64,000 nucleotides of DNA, taken from NCBI GenBank assembly GCA_028279215.1, contig JANQOF010000054.1, positions 124,001-188,000 of the forward strand. The letters are read 5' to 3'. How positions within the stretch are numbered: position 1 is the stretch's first letter; the number at the start of each line of letters is the position of its first letter. Below are positions 34,193-60,936 of the stretch, one piece after another. The stretch is from Pirellulales bacterium (GTDB lineage: Bacteria > Planctomycetota > Planctomycetia > Pirellulales > Lacipirellulaceae). The notes under the pieces are model-generated. The model did no database searches. It was not told where the DNA came from and worked only from the letters and a program-made list of their open reading frames with translations. Both the position numbers and the translations under genes were made by a program.

Positions 34193-34865
34193 GCGATGGG
34201 TGGCACTGGTTGGCCGTAGGCCAACCAGTGTGACGAAGTCACAAGAGGTTGCACCCAGCCTAAGTTCGCCCGACAATCATCGCATGCGTGAAAGACGACG
34301 AGTCGCGGACGACCAGCTATATTGCCACTTCATCACCTTCTCAGTCTATCGACGAAGGCGTTTGTTGGAGCTTGATCCTCCGAAGCGAATCCTGCTAGGA
34401 GTACTCAACTTCGTTCTCGAAAAGCATGTCGCCAAATGCGTCGGATTTGTAGTCATGCCCGACCATGTGCATGTACTAGTATGGCTGCCCAAGACGGGCG
34501 AACTCAGCAAGTTCATGCACGAATGGAAACGGCAGTCGAGTCTTAAGATTCGCGCGTGGTATCGCGATGAAGAGACAAACTACTTCAGCAAGTTTGGCGA
34601 AGGCGACAAGTTCTGGCAGCCGAAGTACTATTCGTTCTCGATCGACAACCAGTCGAAGCTGGAAGAAAAGCTCCAATACATGCACAATAATCTCGTGCGT
34701 GCTGGGTTGGTTGATCGCGCAACCGATTGGCCTTGGAGTTCTGCTCGCTGGTATGCATCACAGTACTCGGTTGGCGTGAAGATCGAATGGGTCGATTAGC
34801 GACTCGGTGCTTCTTGTGACTACGTCACCCTGGTAGGACTACGGCCAACCAGGGCCACCCTTCGC
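34193..34865. mobile_element. RAYT transposase unit with REP-like terminal inverted repeats
   Basis: The left arm 34193-34245 and right arm 34813-34865 are inverse copies of 53 bp with about 47 matches. Each arm holds two small hairpins; in the left arm CTGGTTGGCC-GTA-GGCCAACCAG and TGTGAC-GAA-GTCACA are perfect. This is the arrangement of a REP doublet around its REP-associated tyrosine transposase. Confidence 0.8.
34284..34799 (+). CDS. REP-associated tyrosine transposase (RAYT, IS200/Y1 family)
   Basis: A 171-residue Y1 transposase. The HuH metal motif is VVMPDHVHVLVWLP (HVH near residues 60-62) and the catalytic tyrosine is probably in KYYSFSIDN or LQYMHNN near residues 115-135, as in the family. 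The C-terminal end (DRATDWPWSSARWY) is the standard RAYT signature. It lies inside the 53-bp inverted repeats. The family nicks single-stranded REP hairpins. The start at 34284 is the first ATG after the left repeat. Confidence 0.93.
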   Translation: MRERRRVADDQLYCHFITFSVYRRRRLLELDPPKRILLGVLNFVLEKHVAKCVGFVVMPDHVHVLVWLPKTGELSKFMHEWKRQSSLKIRAWYRDEETNYFSKFGEGDKFWQPKYYSFSIDNQSKLEEKLQYMHNNLVRAGLVDRATDWPWSSARWYASQYSVGVKIEWVD

Positions 34866-45190: not shown

Positions 45191-45463
45191 CCACTATCCG
45201 AGACCATTGGACATCCAACGAGGGGATGCTAGTACCTCGGCACATGGGCCACTGGGTGCGAGAATGGAGTGTTAGGCCGAGTAATTGCTGGGGTTGAATG
45301 GCGGCTGTCGGCCATTCGGTTGATTGCGTCGGCATGTCGTCGTGGGTACCATGGATGCGTTGATTTTTCGATTTCCGCTCACCTGGGGCTGGGAGCGATC
45401 AGTCCTAGGTTTCACCAACATATTGCAAGCCACATTTGGAATTTGAAACGAAGAGGGTTACTC

Positions 45464-46786
45464 ATGCGATTATTACGTCGCCGGTTGCGTGTTGTTTTGG
45501 TTATTGCTCTTTGTCTGGTGCTTACGGTCGACCCAGCGTCGGCTTGCCATTGGTTCGGAGCCCGCTGGTTCAATCGTTGCTCGCCTTGCGCTAGCTATTG
45601 TCAACCGGCCTGCTACACCGTTCACTCTTGCGCGCCTAGCTGCGGTTACACCAGGAGCTGTGACAGTGGCTGCTGGTCGGGATGCGAATCGGACGTGGTA
45701 ACATCGTCCGCGTGTGGATGCGGCGAGTCGGTGGTAGACCATTCGGCGACGGTGATTGAAGGTTCGCCGACAGCGTCTCACGCCGAGCCGACACCCACTT
45801 GGTCGGCGACCGAGCCAGCCACGGACCGCGCCGTCAACAAACCGGCCGAAGATATCAATCCGGCACCATTGCTGGTAGACGACGCCGTCGCCGAGCCAAT
45901 GCCGGTGCCCGAAGCTCCTGTCGACGATATGGTCGCCCCACTGGACAGCGGACCTATCGATGAGCCAGTGGCGGACGACAATATGTTCGCGGCACCCGTC
46001 GATGAGCCGGTGGCAGAAGCGCCCGCCGCAGTTCAGCCGGCCGACAACGTAGCCCCGGCCAACGAGCCAGCGCCAGCCGACGATGGATTGTTTGGTGCTC
46101 CGGCCGACGAGCCGCCCGACGACGGACTCTTTGGCGCCCCCGCCGACGAGCCCGCCCAGGAGCCTGTCGACGACGATGGCCTATTCGGCGCCCCCGCCGA
46201 CGAGCCGGCTGCCGACGATGGATTGTTCGGCGCACCCGCCGAAGGGCCGGCGCCTGAACAGGCCGCCCATGACGGTGGGCTGTTCGGTGCGCCAGCCGAC
46301 GACGCTGCCCCCGGGGACGACGGTTTGTTCGGCGCGCCGGTTGAAGAGGCCGCTCCGGCGGAGCAAGTTGAAGACGGCTTGTTCGGAGCTCCTGCTGAAG
46401 AAGCGCCGATGGATGATGGTTTGTTTGGTGCTCCGGCCGAAGAACCTGCCCCGGCCGACGACGGCCTGTTTGGGCCTGCCGACGAACCTGCCGACGATGC
46501 ACCCGCCGACGACGGAGAGGGCGACCTATTCAATTTTGGTTCGGTGCTTGAGTCGCCAGGCGGATTGAGTAGTCTTTCGCTTCGTCACTGGGTCGACAAC
46601 ACCGGCCAATACGCAGTCGACGCCCGACTGATCGCCGTCGCCGATGGCCATGTGCGATTGCTCAAAGCCAACGGCCGCACCGCCACGGTTGCCTTCAGTC
46701 GCTTAAGCGACGAAGACCTCTCGTTCGTCAATCGCCAAGCGGCAGCCGAGCGCGCGAAGACGCTCTCGCGAACGGCTCAGCGCTAA
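45464..46786 (+). CDS. Secreted Cys-rich protein with DDGLFGAPADEP repeats and SHD1 domain
   Basis: A 440-residue exported protein. A signal peptide (RLRVVLVIALCLVLTVDPASA) leads to a Cys-rich block (SCAPSCGYTRSCDSGCWSGC, residues about 35-75). Then come an acidic Pro/Ala linker and about nine near-tandem units of the pattern DDGLFGAPAxEP (residues about 205-345). A C-terminal SHD1 domain follows (LRHWVDNTGQYAVDARLIAV, about 370-430). SHD1 domains are widespread in planctomycetes. No enzymatic motif. The frame is open further upstream, but the ATG at 45464 starts the signal peptide. A structural or cell-surface role is likely. Confidence 0.85.
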   Translation: MRLLRRRLRVVLVIALCLVLTVDPASACHWFGARWFNRCSPCASYCQPACYTVHSCAPSCGYTRSCDSGCWSGCESDVVTSSACGCGESVVDHSATVIEGSPTASHAEPTPTWSATEPATDRAVNKPAEDINPAPLLVDDAVAEPMPVPEAPVDDMVAPLDSGPIDEPVADDNMFAAPVDEPVAEAPAAVQPADNVAPANEPAPADDGLFGAPADEPPDDGLFGAPADEPAQEPVDDDGLFGAPADEPAADDGLFGAPAEGPAPEQAAHDGGLFGAPADDAAPGDDGLFGAPVEEAAPAEQVEDGLFGAPAEEAPMDDGLFGAPAEEPAPADDGLFGPADEPADDAPADDGEGDLFNFGSVLESPGGLSSLSLRHWVDNTGQYAVDARLIAVADGHVRLLKANGRTATVAFSRLSDEDLSFVNRQAAAERAKTLSRTAQR

Positions 46787-46838: not shown

Positions 46839-47004
46839 CCTAGAGCGTGCTTCGGCTAGCTGTAGCGATGTTGGCGCAAACGAGTCAAGTCTGGCAAGGT
46901 GGCCGAAGCAGGCGAATCTGCATGCATTCGTCGATGAAGGCCAACGTAGCCAGATGCGGACGCAGTAAGCGGGCACGCTACAGATAGGCGAAGGGCGCTC
47001 TAGC
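46839..47004. repeat. Convergent-end TIR element, copy A
   Basis: A 166-bp element with terminal inverted repeats of about 29 bp: left 46839-46867 ends in GCTAGCTGTAGCG, right 46976-47004 begins CGCTACAGATAGGCG and ends in GGGCGCTCTAG. The core contains GCAGGCGAATCTGCATG. A second copy at 55749-55912 agrees over nearly its whole length. It lies between the SHD1 gene and the convergent hemY gene, and its right end supplies the hemY stop codon TAG (47000-47002). Confidence 0.75.
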
Positions 47005-48427
47005 TTCTTGTTTGCGCAAGCGCGCCTGCCACACGCTCCGCGGCCTGTTCTCCGCTGTGAATACACTGCGGGATGCCCACGCCGTGATAGGCGTTGCCGG
47101 CGAGTTCCAGGCCGTGCAATTTCGCCACACGCGATTCGATCCGAGCAACGCGCTCAAGGTGGCCCAGATGATACTGCGGCATGCTGCGGCTCCAGCGACA
47201 CACCATCGACATCTCGGGCCTTCCCGATAGCCCAATCAACTCACCCAACTCGCGTATAGCCACAGCGATCGACTGTTTGTCGGGCAAGTCCGCCAACTCG
47301 GGTTGCAGCGCTCCGCCCATGAACACCCGCACGATCAACCGATCGCTCGGCGCGCGACCTGGAAACTTCAAGTTGCTAAAGCTGGCGGCGATGATTTGTC
47401 GGCGCTCCACGTTTGGAACGACGAACCCGAACCCTTCGATTGGCTTGGCAACCTGATCGCGACGGACTCCAAGCACCACCACTGAAGTACTCGCGTGTTC
47501 GATCTGGGCCAACTCGTCGCTGAGCTGCGGGTCGGCCTCTGCTAACAGTCTGCTGGCCCGGCTGGCAGGAGTCGCGACCACTACCGCCGAGGCCTCGAAG
47601 CATCGACCGTCCTCTGCGATGAGTTGCCACGCGCCTGGGGTGCGCCAGGTGAGGCGCTGGATGGGAACACCCAACTCGATCGTGCCCGAAGGGAGTCGCT
47701 CGGCCAGCGCGTTCACCAGTTGCGACATGCCGCCGCGCGGGGCGACGAACTTGCTGTAGGCGGCCCCGCTATCGGTGCGATTCGCATCGCCGCGCCGCGC
47801 GCGCCACAGGCTGCCGTACCGCGCCTCTTGCTCAACAAACTGCGGCATCGTGGCCCGCATGCTCAGTTTCTCAGGGTCGGCCGTGTAGATGCCGGCGACC
47901 AGCGGTTGTACTAAGCGCTCAAATACCTCTTTACCTAACCGCCTGCGAGCAAAGCTGGCCACGCTCTCGTCAGTCGTCTCCGGTCGCTGGGATACGAACG
48001 GCTCGAGCATGAGTCGTCCCTTGCCGGCGAGGCTCAACACCGGCGTAGTAAGTATCGGACCCAGGCGCCCCGCGGACATCAGTACAAAGGCCTCAGGCAC
48101 AGCGACTACACGGCCGCCGCTTACTACCAAAGCTCTGCGAAGCTTTGGATCGGTGGGTAGCAAGTCGCCGGCGATGCCGAGCCGCCCGCAAAGCTCCGTT
48201 GCCCACGGCAACTTGGTGATGAAGTTGTCGGCGCTCGTTTCGACTAAATAGTCGTCCTCCTGGACCGTCTGCAGAACGCCGCCCACGCGAGGACTTGCTT
48301 CGAACAACCTGACAGGGACGTCCCGTAACAGTTCGCTCAGGCGATGGGCGGCTGCCAGTCCGCTGATGCCGCCACCCACAACGGCGATCGGCAACGGGGC
48401 GTGATGTGTGGGCGATCGATCGGCCAT
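47000..48427 (-). CDS. hemY: Protoporphyrinogen oxidase (HemY/PPOX)
   Basis: A 475-residue FAD enzyme oxidising protoporphyrinogen IX to protoporphyrin IX. The FAD-binding motif VVGGGISGLAAAHRL lies at about residues 15-29. Family segments follow: ASPRVGGVLQT, VQEDDYLVETSADNFI, a conserved RLGKEVFERLVQPLVAGIY and the C-terminal GNAYHGVGIPQCIHSGEQAA that closes the FAD site. Length fits the family. The start MADRSPT at 48427 is the closest ATG to the FAD motif. No other heme gene is near. Confidence 0.95.
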   Translation of the reverse strand: MADRSPTHHAPLPIAVVGGGISGLAAAHRLSELLRDVPVRLFEASPRVGGVLQTVQEDDYLVETSADNFITKLPWATELCGRLGIAGDLLPTDPKLRRALVVSGGRVVAVPEAFVLMSAGRLGPILTTPVLSLAGKGRLMLEPFVSQRPETTDESVASFARRRLGKEVFERLVQPLVAGIYTADPEKLSMRATMPQFVEQEARYGSLWRARRGDANRTDSGAAYSKFVAPRGGMSQLVNALAERLPSGTIELGVPIQRLTWRTPGAWQLIAEDGRCFEASAVVVATPASRASRLLAEADPQLSDELAQIEHASTSVVVLGVRRDQVAKPIEGFGFVVPNVERRQIIAASFSNLKFPGRAPSDRLIVRVFMGGALQPELADLPDKQSIAVAIRELGELIGLSGRPEMSMVCRWSRSMPQYHLGHLERVARIESRVAKLHGLELAGNAYHGVGIPQCIHSGEQAAERVAGALAQTRS

Positions 48428-48587
48428 GTACCGGTTATCGCCATAAGCCTGAGCAGACTCAACCCACGACCAGTGTTCTACCAGAACTGAATGATAGGGT
48501 TGGGTGATGCGAGCCAAAGGCGCTAGCCTTGGCTTGTCTTGGCAACAACCGACGCTAGCGCGTTCGACTCAACCGACTCCTGGTCGG

Positions 48588-54955: not shown

Positions 54956-55753
54956 ATGTCTTCCCCCAGCGTATTGGTACTCCGTGCACCAGGCACCAAC
55001 TGCGACAAGGAAACGGCATTCGCCTTCGAGCAATCAGGCGGCGAGGCCCAACTAGTGCATGTGGACGAGTTACTAAGTAGCAGCGAACTGCTGGCCAACC
55101 ATCAAATCATGTGTCTACCGGGTGGATTCAGCTATGGCGACGATATTGCCTCGGGGCGCATCCTGGGCAACAAGCTTCGCAAGCAGCTTGCCGAAAAGCT
55201 TATGGAGTTTCGCGACGCCGGCAAACTGGTTCTCGGCGTTTGCAACGGCTTTCAGGTGCTGATGAAGACGGGCCTGCTGGACGTCGACGACGAGGAAGGG
55301 CCGCAAGCGACGTTGGCGTGGAACAACAGCGGCCGCTACGAGGCGCGGTGGGTCAAACTGCGTTCGCGGCCAGGCAACTGCGTTTTGCTGCAAGGCATCG
55401 ACAGTATCGAGCTGCCTGTTGCCCATGCTGAAGGCAAATTCTTGGTTCGCGACCAATCGGCGCTCAACCAATTGGCGGCATCAGGGCGGCTTGTGTTGCA
55501 GTACACTTCGGCGCACGCATCCCCGGCGCATTCGCCTACCCTCAAACCTGCGATTGAATACCCGGCCAATCCTAACGGCGCGTCGGCCGACATTGCCGGT
55601 ATCTGCGACGCGAGTGGCCGCGTGCTGGGCCTGATGCCCCACCCCGAGCGATTCATCTTCGCCCACCAGCATCCGACTTGGACGCGCCTTGGCACGACCG
55701 GTGTGGGCGATGGATTGAAGTTGTTCAGGAATGCCGTGGCGTACTTCCGCTAG
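54956..55753 (+). CDS. purQ: Phosphoribosylformylglycinamidine synthase, glutaminase subunit
   Basis: A 265-residue class I glutamine amidotransferase that feeds ammonia to PurL. The nucleophile Cys is in LGVCNGFQVL near residue 96. The catalytic His/Glu pair lies in MPHPERFIF near 226. The oxyanion region PGGFSYGDDI precedes. Its length is a little above that of Bacillus PurQ (227). It follows purL with a 71-bp gap and ends in the left terminal repeat of copy B of the convergent-end element, which supplies its TAG. Confidence 0.97.
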   Translation: MSSPSVLVLRAPGTNCDKETAFAFEQSGGEAQLVHVDELLSSSELLANHQIMCLPGGFSYGDDIASGRILGNKLRKQLAEKLMEFRDAGKLVLGVCNGFQVLMKTGLLDVDDEEGPQATLAWNNSGRYEARWVKLRSRPGNCVLLQGIDSIELPVAHAEGKFLVRDQSALNQLAASGRLVLQYTSAHASPAHSPTLKPAIEYPANPNGASADIAGICDASGRVLGLMPHPERFIFAHQHPTWTRLGTTGVGDGLKLFRNAVAYFR

Positions 55754-55912
55754 AACGTACTTCCGCTAGCTTTAGCGATGTTGACGCCAACGAGTCAAAT
55801 CTGGCAAGGGGTTGAAGCAGGCGAATCTGCATGATTCGTGGATGCAGGCCAACGTAGCCAGGTGCCGACATAGTAAGCCAGTACGCTACAGCTAGGCGAA
55901 GGGCGCTCTAGC
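55749..55912. repeat. Convergent-end TIR element, copy B
   Basis: A 164-bp copy matching 46839-47004. Left repeat 55749-55777 (GCTAGAACG...TTTAGCG) and right repeat 55884-55912 (CGCTACAGCTAGGCG...GCTCTAGC) are inverse. The core GCAGGCGAATCTGCATG is identical in both copies. It lies between the convergent purQ and the large secreted protein gene. Its left TAG (55751-55753) is the purQ stop codon; the right TAG lies 18 bp past the stop codon of the other gene. Confidence 0.75.
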
Positions 55913-55927
55913 TGTTCACGACAAGCT

Positions 55928-58615
55928 TCATTCGGTTCGGTCGGTCTCGGTCCGTGTGGCCGTGCGCCGCGGACGAATCACTTCGCGCACCATCACGGCG
56001 TCGATATCGGCCGATGCGGGACCGGTCAACGCCAGGTTCAACTGCAACTGCCCGCTATCGTCGGCGGTGCGCACCATGCGAAACTGTCGCCAGCCGGTTG
56101 TCGCGGGGATGCGTATGGCAAGTTGTTCGCCGCCCAGCGTATCGACAATCAACAATTCGCCGCGCTGGCTTCCGGTTTGCGTGGCAACGCGCGCCCATCC
56201 AGTGACTTCAAACACGCCGCCGGGAGTGACTGCCAGTCGTGGCGAGGTGATCCAAACCACAGGCTGCGGAGCGACATCGTGGGCCATCATTTCTCCAATT
56301 ACTGCTCGGGAGTTGAGTCGCAGGCATGCGTTGCCGTGATAGGGCTCTTGAGGCGAAAGCTCCACGGCTGTGCTCACCTTCGCATCGGCGTAAGTGGCGT
56401 GCAACCAACCGGCGCTTACCGCAGTGTTCAGATCCTCAAAGTCGCCGCCGGCAAGCAGGTTAGGGCCTCGTGGCAGCCCGCGAATCGATTGTTCGATCGC
56501 TTGATGCGTTGGCAGTAGCTTCGGAACAAACTGCGTGGCCACGCTGCCGAATCCAGCAGATTGTTCGCCACTTCGAATGCGAGCCAACTCGGCCGCCGCG
56601 TCATATCGCACTTGACTGGCCATGTGTGCTACGCGCGGATAATCGCGCGACGCCAAATACTGATCGACCTTCTGCACCTTCTGTTTGAGACCTTTCATGC
56701 GAGCCGTTTGTGCGCGATCGCTGAGATCGACAAGCTGGCTGCGAAGCGCTTCGAGTTGCGCGACTTCCGACGCGGCGAGTCCACGCGAGACTTGCGCCGC
56801 TTGCGCCGCACTGCGACCGATACGCTTTTGGGCAACAGCGAGCGCCCGCGAATCGTCGGTCAACAGCACGAACCCTCCGGCAGCGAATTGGCCAAGTTGA
56901 ACTCGGTAGCCGCCCGCAACGCGACCGCCCGATAGCGGAAGTAAACCGGCAGGGCTGTAGGAGTGAGCCTTTGCGGTCTCCGGCACGCCCGCAACGACCA
57001 GCGTCATTGCCGACGGTTGGGCGGTCAATGGTAACGCTTGCTGCGGGATGTAAGTCAGGTGCGATTGGCCCAATTGCCAGACCGTCGCGGCGGCCTCGGC
57101 GCCGGTGACTTCGGCGCTTGGCGTCCGCTTGCCGGAAACTAACCATGGCTCGATCAACGTCAGTTCACGGTTGAGTAACTGCAGTTCTTCGATCAACTGG
57201 CGGGTTTCAGGGTAGGTGCGGCCAAGTCGCTCCGGTGTGCGTACGACAAGTCCGCGAGCGCCCGCCGCCACGGTTTGCAACGCGGCATTGTGAATCTGAT
57301 TGGGGTGGTGCCAGCCAAGATGGCGTGCCCGCGGAGCAAGCAGTTGGGCTTGGGTGGTTGCTTGTTCGCTCCAGCCTAACGACAGTTGCGTCCAAGGGGA
57401 GCAGCCCATGATGCTGAGGGCTTGCTGTCGCAGCGGTGGTGTCGAGTCGTCGAGCGGTTGTTCGGCGGGGCGGACCAAGACATCGGCCAGACGGCCGAAG
57501 CGACGCGGCCGATCGGCGGCGCCCACCAGCACTGGCCTCCCAAGCGGGTCGGTACGCCGCACCTCGTCGACGGTCGAAGCGACTTGGTCCAACGCTGCAC
57601 CGTTGTGGTCGAGACCAAGCGACCAGGCAAGCACGGTTTGCCAAATGCTGTCGACCGGTATCCTAGCAAGCTGATCCACGTTCGGCGGTGGGCAAACGAC
57701 CCATAGCCGCGCAGCGCGGGCCGCGTGAAGTTGAGCCTCGGTGGCCGGTTTTTCAAGCCACACCGCGTTGAATCCCATCTCGGCGACGAAGTCGAACGGC
57801 TCGCCACGGTGCTGCAGAACTCGCGGTACAATCGGTACACCTGCCACGGCGATGGTGTTACCGTTTCGGCGGATTGCAACCGGCTCGAACGACTTGCGCT
57901 GCTGTGAGGAGCCCGTGCCAGGAGCCTGCAGCAACGGGCCTTCGACGGCGTCGCTCGACGTCGTGCCGTTGTTCGTCCCGTCCTTCGACAGTGTGGGCGA
58001 TACGCCGACTACCGTTAACTGATCGGTCTCCACCAGCGACTCGTTCGGATCACCCGGAACCACCAGCACCACGTGGCTCACATAGGCTTCGGCTACATCG
58101 ACTTGAACTTTGGGATCGATGCTGATGAGCCTGGCCCTACGGCGGGCAAGCAGGGGGACATTCGTCAGCCGCAGGTTTTGCCACTGTCCAGGTTCCGAGT
58201 AACGAAGCCCGTGGACCATCGTGGAGACTGGTTTGCCAGTCGCCGGGTCATTCGTTCGCGGAAACACGATCTCAGCCGCCAACTGCACGCCTGGGCGATT
58301 GGCGCGGAGGACCACTTCGATCGTCAATTCATCGAGGACAGGTAGATTGCCAACAGTTCGCTCTAACTGCGCCGCATAACCGGGCGGACAGAGCAACACC
58401 AGTCGCTCGGCCGAGGTGGGGCGATCTGCATGGGGTGCTTGAGTTCGCTGCTGTGCAAGCACACGCACCCCTGCGGCTGGTCGCACTCGCCACGTGGGCG
58501 ACGGGCCATCGAACTGTTCGTCCAGCACGACATCGGCAGAAGTAGGCGCAGCCACTGCAACGATCAGAGCAACGGCCACCGCGGTGAGTCGACAAGTACG
58601 GCTTGCCCAGGACAT
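55928..58615 (-). CDS. Large secreted protein of unknown function
   Basis: An 895-residue exported protein. A signal peptide (MSWASRTCRLTAVAVALIVAVAAPTSA) precedes a beta-sandwich region (residues about 30-200). Residues 250-500 contain TIM-barrel-like strands (MGFNAVWLEKPAT, GARGLVVRTPERLG) like a glycoside-hydrolase-type barrel. A helical block follows (RSQLVDLSDRAQTARMKGLK, about 630-690). A C-terminal jelly-roll carbohydrate-binding-like domain (NLLAGGDFEDLNTAVSAGW onward) ends it. No catalytic residues can be assigned, so enzymatic activity is open. The ATG at 58615 is chosen for the signal peptide; one at 58651 is possible. Confidence 0.8.
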   Translation of the reverse strand: MSWASRTCRLTAVAVALIVAVAAPTSADVVLDEQFDGPSPTWRVRPAAGVRVLAQQRTQAPHADRPTSAERLVLLCPPGYAAQLERTVGNLPVLDELTIEVVLRANRPGVQLAAEIVFPRTNDPATGKPVSTMVHGLRYSEPGQWQNLRLTNVPLLARRRARLISIDPKVQVDVAEAYVSHVVLVVPGDPNESLVETDQLTVVGVSPTLSKDGTNNGTTSSDAVEGPLLQAPGTGSSQQRKSFEPVAIRRNGNTIAVAGVPIVPRVLQHRGEPFDFVAEMGFNAVWLEKPATEAQLHAARAARLWVVCPPPNVDQLARIPVDSIWQTVLAWSLGLDHNGAALDQVASTVDEVRRTDPLGRPVLVGAADRPRRFGRLADVLVRPAEQPLDDSTPPLRQQALSIMGCSPWTQLSLGWSEQATTQAQLLAPRARHLGWHHPNQIHNAALQTVAAGARGLVVRTPERLGRTYPETRQLIEELQLLNRELTLIEPWLVSGKRTPSAEVTGAEAAATVWQLGQSHLTYIPQQALPLTAQPSAMTLVVAGVPETAKAHSYSPAGLLPLSGGRVAGGYRVQLGQFAAGGFVLLTDDSRALAVAQKRIGRSAAQAAQVSRGLAASEVAQLEALRSQLVDLSDRAQTARMKGLKQKVQKVDQYLASRDYPRVAHMASQVRYDAAAELARIRSGEQSAGFGSVATQFVPKLLPTHQAIEQSIRGLPRGPNLLAGGDFEDLNTAVSAGWLHATYADAKVSTAVELSPQEPYHGNACLRLNSRAVIGEMMAHDVAPQPVVWITSPRLAVTPGGVFEVTGWARVATQTGSQRGELLIVDTLGGEQLAIRIPATTGWRQFRMVRTADDSGQLQLNLALTGPASADIDAVMVREVIRPRRTATRTETDRTE

Positions 58616-58818
58616 GAGTGGAGGAGTGTTGCTGGAAAGGACCACGGTCATTCGAGGCGAAGTGTCGACCAGCCTGATGCCAAAAGTCTACACGCCCCGC
58701 TGGCCGCCACTTGGCGACGTAAGTCGAGTTTCTAGCAAGGTTTTCGCCGCTCCCCCAGGCCATTTTGATGCTCAAACGCCACATGTGGCCGTGGAGGTGC
58801 TTTCACCGCGCCAACCCG

Positions 58819-59426: not shown

Positions 59427-60878
59427 ATGGCCACCGTCAATTCCGCGGATCAACTGGCACAACGCGCGATGGAGGCTGGGGTCCTCGATCATCGCGTGTT
59501 GCAGGCAGTGCGGGGGGAACTAGGAACCCGCACGGTGGATCTGCACACGCTTCAGCAAGAGCTTCTGCGTCGCAACCTGCTCACGCAATATCAGCTCGAA
59601 CGCCTGACGAAGGGTTTGAAGACTGGCTTCTTCTACGGCGACTATAAGGTGCTCTACTGTGTGGGAGCGGGAACGTTCGCGCGCGTATTTCGTGCAGTGA
59701 ACGTCAAGAACAATCAAATCTACGCGGTGAAAGTGCTGCGAAACCGCTGGCTGGCGGAAGCGGATTCGTTTCGACGCGAAGGCGAACTTGGGGCATCGCT
59801 CAAGCACCCGAATATCGTTCCAATCCACGAAGTCGTATCGAAGCGCGACACACACTTCTTCGTGATGGACTTCATCGAAGGGCGTAACCTTCGCGAATTC
59901 ACGCGAGTGCGCCGCGTTTTCGAGCCACTCGAGGCCGCCAACATCCTCGAGGGAATGATCGCCGGTTTGAACTACGCATTTCAGCAGGGCGTGACGCACC
60001 GTGATCTGAAAATGTCCAACGTCCTCGTATCAAGCGAAGGTGTAGCCAAATTGCTCGATTTCGGGCTCGCAGCGCTCGAAAGCGAAGCGGCAGGTGAAGC
60101 GGGTGTGAAGCGTACGGTTGAATACGCAGCACTCGAGCGAGCCACCGGAGTGCGAAAAGACGATACACGGAGCGACATCTTCTTTGCCGGTTGTATTTTC
60201 TATCACATGCTGGGTGGGCGTTCGCCTATTCCCGAAGGTCGGGATCGTGGCAAGCAAATGAGCAAGGCGACCTTCCAGAGCATACCGCCAATTCTGTCGG
60301 TGAACGCCGGTATTCCGCCGACGTTCGCCAAGGTGATCAACAAAGCGATTGAATTCGATCCCGCCAAACGGTACCAGACGCCTGCCGAGATGCTCACCGA
60401 TCTGAAGATCGCTGCCAAACGGCTTGCCGAGCGCGGTGCCGACAAGCCAGCGAAAGCCGAACTGTCGAGCGACGAGGGCCTGGACGAAAACGGCGAACCG
60501 CGTCGGCTAATGGTGGTCGAGGCCAACGTGAAAATGCAGGATTTGCTAAGAGGCCTGTTTAAGCAGAACGGATATCGTGTGCTAGTCGCTAGCGATCCCA
60601 ATCGTGCAATCGATCGATTCTACAACGACGTCAGCGCCGCGGAAGTCGTCCTGTTCAGCAGTGGGCACATTGGTCAACCGGCGCTTGAGGCGTTCAACCG
60701 CTTTGGCCAGGAACCCGGTACGCGCGAAATTCCGGCCATTCTGCTGTTAGACGAGCAGCATGGTAAGTGGGCAAGCGCCGCCGATATAGGCGAGCATCGA
60801 GTCGCCATCACCATGCCGGTCAAACAAAAGCAGTTGCGCCAAGTGGTACAGCAAGTTCTTAGCCGCCAGGCGGTCTAG
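59427..60878 (+). CDS. Ser/Thr protein kinase with pseudo-receiver domain
   Basis: A 483-residue protein. After an N-terminal planctomycete-typical region (LLTQYQLERLTKG) a complete kinase domain spans residues about 70-345: VGAGTFARVF, the Lys in YAVKVL, HRDLKMSNVL, DFGLA and a truncated activation region. The C-terminal 120 residues resemble a receiver domain (LMVVEANVKMQDLLRG... MPVKQKQL), but the position of the phosphorylation Asp is occupied by FSSG (EVVLFSSGHIG). The receiver Lys is kept. It is likely a signal sensor that binds partners without phosphorylation. No membrane segment. Confidence 0.9.
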   Translation: MATVNSADQLAQRAMEAGVLDHRVLQAVRGELGTRTVDLHTLQQELLRRNLLTQYQLERLTKGLKTGFFYGDYKVLYCVGAGTFARVFRAVNVKNNQIYAVKVLRNRWLAEADSFRREGELGASLKHPNIVPIHEVVSKRDTHFFVMDFIEGRNLREFTRVRRVFEPLEAANILEGMIAGLNYAFQQGVTHRDLKMSNVLVSSEGVAKLLDFGLAALESEAAGEAGVKRTVEYAALERATGVRKDDTRSDIFFAGCIFYHMLGGRSPIPEGRDRGKQMSKATFQSIPPILSVNAGIPPTFAKVINKAIEFDPAKRYQTPAEMLTDLKIAAKRLAERGADKPAKAELSSDEGLDENGEPRRLMVVEANVKMQDLLRGLFKQNGYRVLVASDPNRAIDRFYNDVSAAEVVLFSSGHIGQPALEAFNRFGQEPGTREIPAILLLDEQHGKWASAADIGEHRVAITMPVKQKQLRQVVQQVLSRQAV

Positions 60879-60936
60879 CTGTCTGCCGCATCGTCGCGTT
60901 TGTACCTAATGCTGACGATGGCGAAGGGCGCTCTAA
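60875..60936. repeat. Shrunken derivative of the convergent-end TIR element
   Basis: GGCGAAGGGCGCTCTAA at 60920-60936 equals the right end of copies A and B over 16 of 17 bases. At 60875-60882 CTAGCTGT equals part of the left terminal repeat. The roughly 62-bp stretch lies between the convergent kinase gene and the 90-residue gene, and the TAGs of both genes lie in the two pieces. The left match is short and could be chance. Confidence 0.55.

Follow-up and report, generated by a model that had tools for sequence, protein, structure and literature searches.

The window (the whole 64,000-nucleotide stretch of DNA analyzed here) contains short repeats whose TAG trinucleotides coincide with the stop codons of adjacent genes. 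This raises the question of whether a dispersed element supplies stop codons to its neighbors, and, more generally, of what this element is and how it came to lie at gene ends.

Element copies and neighboring genes in the window

The two full copies recognized in the preliminary description (at 46839–47004 and 55749–55912) are real, with boundaries at 46841–47002 and 55751–55910. Copy A (plus strand, 162 bp with the TA...TA ends included) begins with TAG and ends with CTA; its left terminal inverted repeat (TIR) spans 46841–46867 (plus strand; family consensus TAGAGCGTGCTTCGGCTAGCTGTAGCG), the right one spans 46976–47002 (minus strand; reverse complement of the family consensus TAGAGCGCCCTTCGCCTATCTGTAGCG), and the conserved hairpin tip, GAAGCAGGCGAAT..ATTCGTCGAT, identified by pattern match at 46905–46935 (plus strand), is near-invariant in alignments A1 and A2. 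Copy B (plus strand, 160 bp) has the same TAG and CTA ends, is diverged (88.8% to the family consensus), and carries the tip at 55814–55843 (plus strand) with one change, GTGGAT for GTCGAT. The TIRs, previously put at about 29 bp, are present, and in the genome consensus they are imperfect and 27 bp long, with 23 of 27 positions identical. A conserved core had been ascribed to three places in the window; it is seen in both full copies and is absent from the third, fragment C (60876–60935, plus strand), which is not a shrunken derivative, as had been proposed, since it has in common with the family just the last 16 bp, GGCGAAGGGCGCTCTA (60920–60935). Fragment C also contains, between the kinase gene and the 90-aa open reading frame (ORF) described below, a 7-bp stem CATCGTC/GACGATG (60889–60920) unrelated to the element core.

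The TAGs of the repeats are exactly the stops of four ORFs, as described earlier. The stop of the hemY-like amine oxidase gene (47000–48517, minus strand; PF01593, E = 9e-56), at 47000–47002, is the right end of copy A; the stop of purQ (54956–55753, plus strand; GATase_5, E = 3e-78), at 55751–55753, is the left end of copy B; the stop of a protein kinase gene (59427–60878, plus strand; PF00069, E = 1.5e-44), at 60876–60878, starts fragment C; and the stop of the 90-aa ORF, which has no Pfam match and no support from the coding score, is the TAG at 60933–60935 in the same fragment. The upstream convergent SHD1-domain gene (45269–46786, plus strand) ends with TAA 54 bp before copy A, and the downstream convergent ORF (55928–58651, minus strand) ends 17 bp outside copy B; hence, each full copy has one stop-providing end. 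Two closely spaced occurrences of GTACTTCCGCTAG lie at the end of purQ (55735–55770), where the last codons of the gene resemble the left end of copy B; this doubling may reflect chance, conversion, or a small duplication.

The family, its hairpin, and its distribution

A genome-wide search for the right end GCGAAGGGCGCTCTA confirms the dispersed family, with 43 places at no more than one mismatch in this genome (G000; 4.56 Mb, 83 contigs) versus 0 for the reversed control. Copy B yields at least 40 strong matches (81–100% identity, E down to 5e-34; 40 of 74 candidates scored). The consensus, derived from 36 complete copies that are each 86–97.5% identical to it, is 161 bp long, individual copies ranging from 157 to 167 bp; with this length, 27-bp TIRs, no coding content, and at least 40 copies, the family has the general characteristics of a MITE. 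True deletion derivatives occur elsewhere in the genome (L054, ~98 bp; L052, 34 bp), and at L022 an element is nested in a short L052-type derivative, splitting it at the derivative's CTAG, with TA on both sides. One copy (contig C7, 47593–47622) has a different tip loop, TTCTA, which suggests a second subfamily in G000. At least 10 contig ends fall within element copies (contigs C3, C15, C21, C29, C32, C39, C43, C57, C72, and C79; loci L040, L047, L042, L043, L033, L050, L017, L012, L023, and L005, respectively), making the element a main cause of fragmentation of the G000 assembly; the true copy number is probably higher than counted.

Over its full length, the 161-bp consensus forms a single hairpin (−87 kcal/mol); for copy A, the single-strand DNA fold has −47.9 kcal/mol (z = −7.85). 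When 17 family representatives are aligned end to end, 84.3% of cells are paired, compared with 33–36% with partners slid, and 36 of 58 arm pairs are changed on both sides, compared with 21.4 in shuffles. The tip, GAAGCAGG...TCGATGCAG, is asymmetric and nearly invariant, being more conserved than both the arms and the TIRs; in genome G008, even the apical stem is changed on both sides.

The family is spread across Planctomycetota. The 23-base tip pattern is found in 60 stretches among 84,980 genomes, 59 of them from Planctomycetota and one from an unclassified bacterium (RI_54); viral contigs contain no exact match to the tip. Of the 298 genomes of the order, 30 (in 20 of 127 genera) are hit by a covariance model built on the 94 inner positions. 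The number of copies per genome varies from one to approximately 82 near-identical ones in G008, the latter pointing to recent mobility.

Target site, empty sites, and gene context

Among 99 copies from G000 and many other Planctomycetota genomes, the outer bases together with TA form YTAR in 94 (47 CTAG, 25 CTAA, 15 TTAG, and 7 TTAA), while the inner G is kept in 97 copies, and the inner C likewise in 97. In 52 of the 99, the 4-mer on one flank is not the same as that on the other, hence the duplication comprises TA, not 4 bp, and a 4-bp YTAR duplication, as in an IS5-type MITE, is ruled out.

For copies in G491 and G497, we also joined the two flanks and searched for the resulting sequence in seven congeneric genomes. 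Many matches span the junction, the sister species having a single YTAR site, with one TA. L198 and its empty counterpart L260 both read ATCGACGGC-TAG-TT (89% over 362 bp), L195 and the empty L253 are 93.5% identical across the junction, and further pairs are L196 with L268 and L262, and L192 with L269. In the pairs of all four copies, the stop of the gene is already at the site in the element-free relative (GGC-TAG in both, in the clearest cases); at L195, the insertion turned TAA into TAG in the same codon. Similarly, in G001 and G002, neither of which has the copy, purQ terminates at the position seen in the window, directly after YFR or YFK. The notion that the element supplies stop codons is thus correct letter by letter, but not as to cause: the stops precede the element at four empty sites for G497 copies and, by position, at purQ, so that the observation named earlier as speaking against this notion, i.e., the same stops in relatives lacking the element, is indeed made. 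Duplication of TA and insertion after YTA without duplication lead to an identical empty site; due to the symmetry of the TIRs, the former is favored. With G as the first and C as the last base of the element, duplication of TA preserves or restores a TAG on each side.

Gene context was assessed with a simple purpose-written codon-score gene finder (it places starts approximately and, in long genes, stops reliably), using individual loci and a 464-kb background sample. No analyzed copy in G000 lies inside a called gene; in the background, 450 of 693 CTAG sites do. In Pan216, one copy (L148) is called inside an ORF. The 34 full G000 copies with both neighbors comprise 17 convergent, 14 tandem, and 3 divergent contexts, versus 39, 130, and 67, respectively, for background CTAG sites outside genes, stops included (P = 4e-5). 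The location between convergent genes, seen at all three places in the window, is therefore a genome-wide bias, but not an exclusive one.

In six genomes, 50 of 111 copies have a TAG that coincides exactly with the stop of a neighboring gene, with 20.5 expected from CTAG/YTAR sites outside genes (G000, 19/42; MB_PLM_2, 10/19; Pan216, 4/15; G491, 5/12; G497, 9/10; G008, 3/13). The excess is significant singly just in G000 and G497 (P = 2.5e-6 and 1e-7), and not individually in the other four; in the convergent gaps of G000 it is weak (11/17 vs. 15/39, P = 0.06). The left and right ends provide stops about equally, and three G497 copies stop both convergent neighbors, one per end. CTAG outside genes is itself often a stop (15–33% in the three genomes with CTAG counted), and this, together with the elimination of copies that landed in genes or promoters, probably accounts for much of the pattern at stops and 3' ends. 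The context counts, the fold, and the covariation support the earlier suggestion of a miniature element that favors the 3' ends of genes and whose nested inverted repeats pair into a hairpin.

Mobilization and alternative explanations

Taken together, we consider it highly probable that this is a non-autonomous, non-coding MITE-type element of approximately 160 bp, forming one hairpin, targeting TA of YTAR, and duplicating TA. Insertion into the TA of YTAR, preferably of the rare CTAG, would yield, through TA duplication, YTAG...CTAR; a gene ending with TAG or TAA at the target would keep or regain its stop in the same codon, while convergent genes sharing one CTAG would each obtain their own TAG. 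The placement at stops and 3' ends would then follow from the target sequence and the loss of harmful insertions, perhaps with some 3'-end targeting. The tip and the paired arms would be kept because mobility needs folded DNA; as copies show no strand preference, the hairpin is likely needed at the DNA level. Mobilization would occur in trans, by a TA-specific enzyme with a target choice resembling that of Tc1/mariner/IS630.

The mobilizing enzyme was not found, no transposase being seen with the ends of the element. As to an autonomous IS630 partner, G000 has three DDE_3 genes, none of them with the TIRs of the element, and three of five high-copy genomes checked (G008, G491, and G497, all rich in near-identical copies) have no DDE_3 genes. 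No Y1 transposase partner emerged from 30 Y1 loci, none having an element within ~1.5 kb, and no recurrent helper gene, as the recurrent neighbors belong to generic planctomycete families only. In Aeoliella straminimaris (L220:1501–1862), an element lies ~100 bp from a DDE_3 (IS630-type) remnant with no sign of shared ends; the element probably inserted next to or within a defunct IS. The window itself encodes a Y1 (IS200/RAYT-type) tyrosine transposase domain (34314–34691, plus strand; E = 2.9e-17), with no element copy nearby.

Both-sided changes in the arms might stem from template switching in a quasipalindrome, not from selection for a folded substrate: template-switch correction is known for imperfect palindromes, and would yield such changes. 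However, asymmetric internal loops (GAA opposite A; GA bulge) recur uncorrected from one family to the next, and the tip is far more conserved than the arms, so that we regard this origin of the complementarity as rather unlikely. The chance is similarly small that gene 3' ends (terminators or convergent ends) are actively targeted, beyond target sequence and selection. The overlap with stops above background in G000 and G497 does imply that selection against harmful sites may be an incomplete explanation; yet the excess in the other four genomes is not significant singly, and the near-identical G008 copies are on stops in just 3 of 13 cases. An RNA element, i.e., a hairpin at mRNA 3' ends that is retained for ending transcription or for protecting or degrading the transcript, would fit the 3'-end location and the strong covariation, and MITEs such as Correia/NEMIS do work through RNA hairpins (PMC2229807). 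It is nonetheless very unlikely: in tandem contexts, the strand of the asymmetric tip is sense to the genes in 25 cases and antisense in 22, which argues against a strand-specific RNA role; copies A and B lack the intrinsic-terminator pattern (a GC stem followed by a T run), contrary to the bidirectional terminator also proposed; a search of Rfam with the region of one full copy (L014) yields no match up to E = 5; and the distribution is patchy (30/298 genomes), sister loci managing without the element.

The transposition mechanism might differ as well. The element could be REP-like, its single-stranded hairpins being handled by a tyrosine (Y1, HUH) transposase and inserted after YTA with no true duplication. 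Y1_Tnp genes are indeed present in all eight element-bearing genomes tested, the same empty site is expected, since YTA could be the target plus the element end, and RAYT genes can have long flanking TIRs, with REP ends giving TAG stops (PMC3733652). This is still unlikely, given the Y1 loci devoid of nearby elements and the 157–167-bp length with paired symmetric terminal repeats, as opposed to GTAG hairpins of 20–40 bp. It is also improbable, though conceivable, that a phylum-wide element moves via a folded single-strand hairpin with the conserved asymmetric tip, duplicating TA, by an enzyme of an undescribed type.

Several described systems share features with the MITE-type element favored here. 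IS630 prefers TA in CTAG (Tenzen and Ohtsubo, 1991, cited in PMC2170065), and, in the published features compared, IS630/Tc1-mariner-type MITEs (e.g., RUP of pneumococcus) likewise are non-coding and intergenic, with TA duplication, CTAG preference, and short TIRs. They differ in that here no partner IS630 has these ends, DDE_3 is absent from three high-copy genomes, the hairpin is full-length, and the tip is more conserved than the TIRs. The termini of GTAG REPs, reported also in Planctomycetes, often provide the TAG stop of neighboring genes, and REPs are mostly located between convergent or co-directional genes (PMC3733652); hence, the general behavior, initially held to be undescribed, has already been reported for REP elements. 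The REP definition (20–40-bp hairpin, GTAG or CGTC) does not match the element with its YTAG/CTAR ends, TA-bounded 27-bp TIRs, and no Y1 gene flanked by it. MITEs with TA termini are tabulated in PMC2229807; ERIC, Correia/NEMIS, and YPAL are similarly long-hairpin MITEs of 100–200 bp (YPAL, ~168 bp), ERIC and Correia having TA termini, while YPAL has none and produces duplications of 3–26 bp, and none of these is described there as phylum-wide with covarying arms and an invariant tip. The IS5-related MITEPsy1 (PMC3189936) has a similar CTAG/YTAA target, but a 4-bp duplication instead of the 2 bp seen here. We found no description of this element in the literature on Planctomycetes and MITEs, our coverage of which is incomplete.

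The family shows how mobile DNA can become widespread in bacterial chromosomes packed with genes while doing almost no harm, since the YTAR target and the TAG-restoring ends leave the protein intact even at a stop codon, and convergent genes that shared one CTAG become separated by the insertion. With its order-wide covarying hairpin and invariant tip, it offers a system, defined by sequence, high in copy number, and apparently active in recent times, for studying how DNA folding contributes to the mobility of MITEs.
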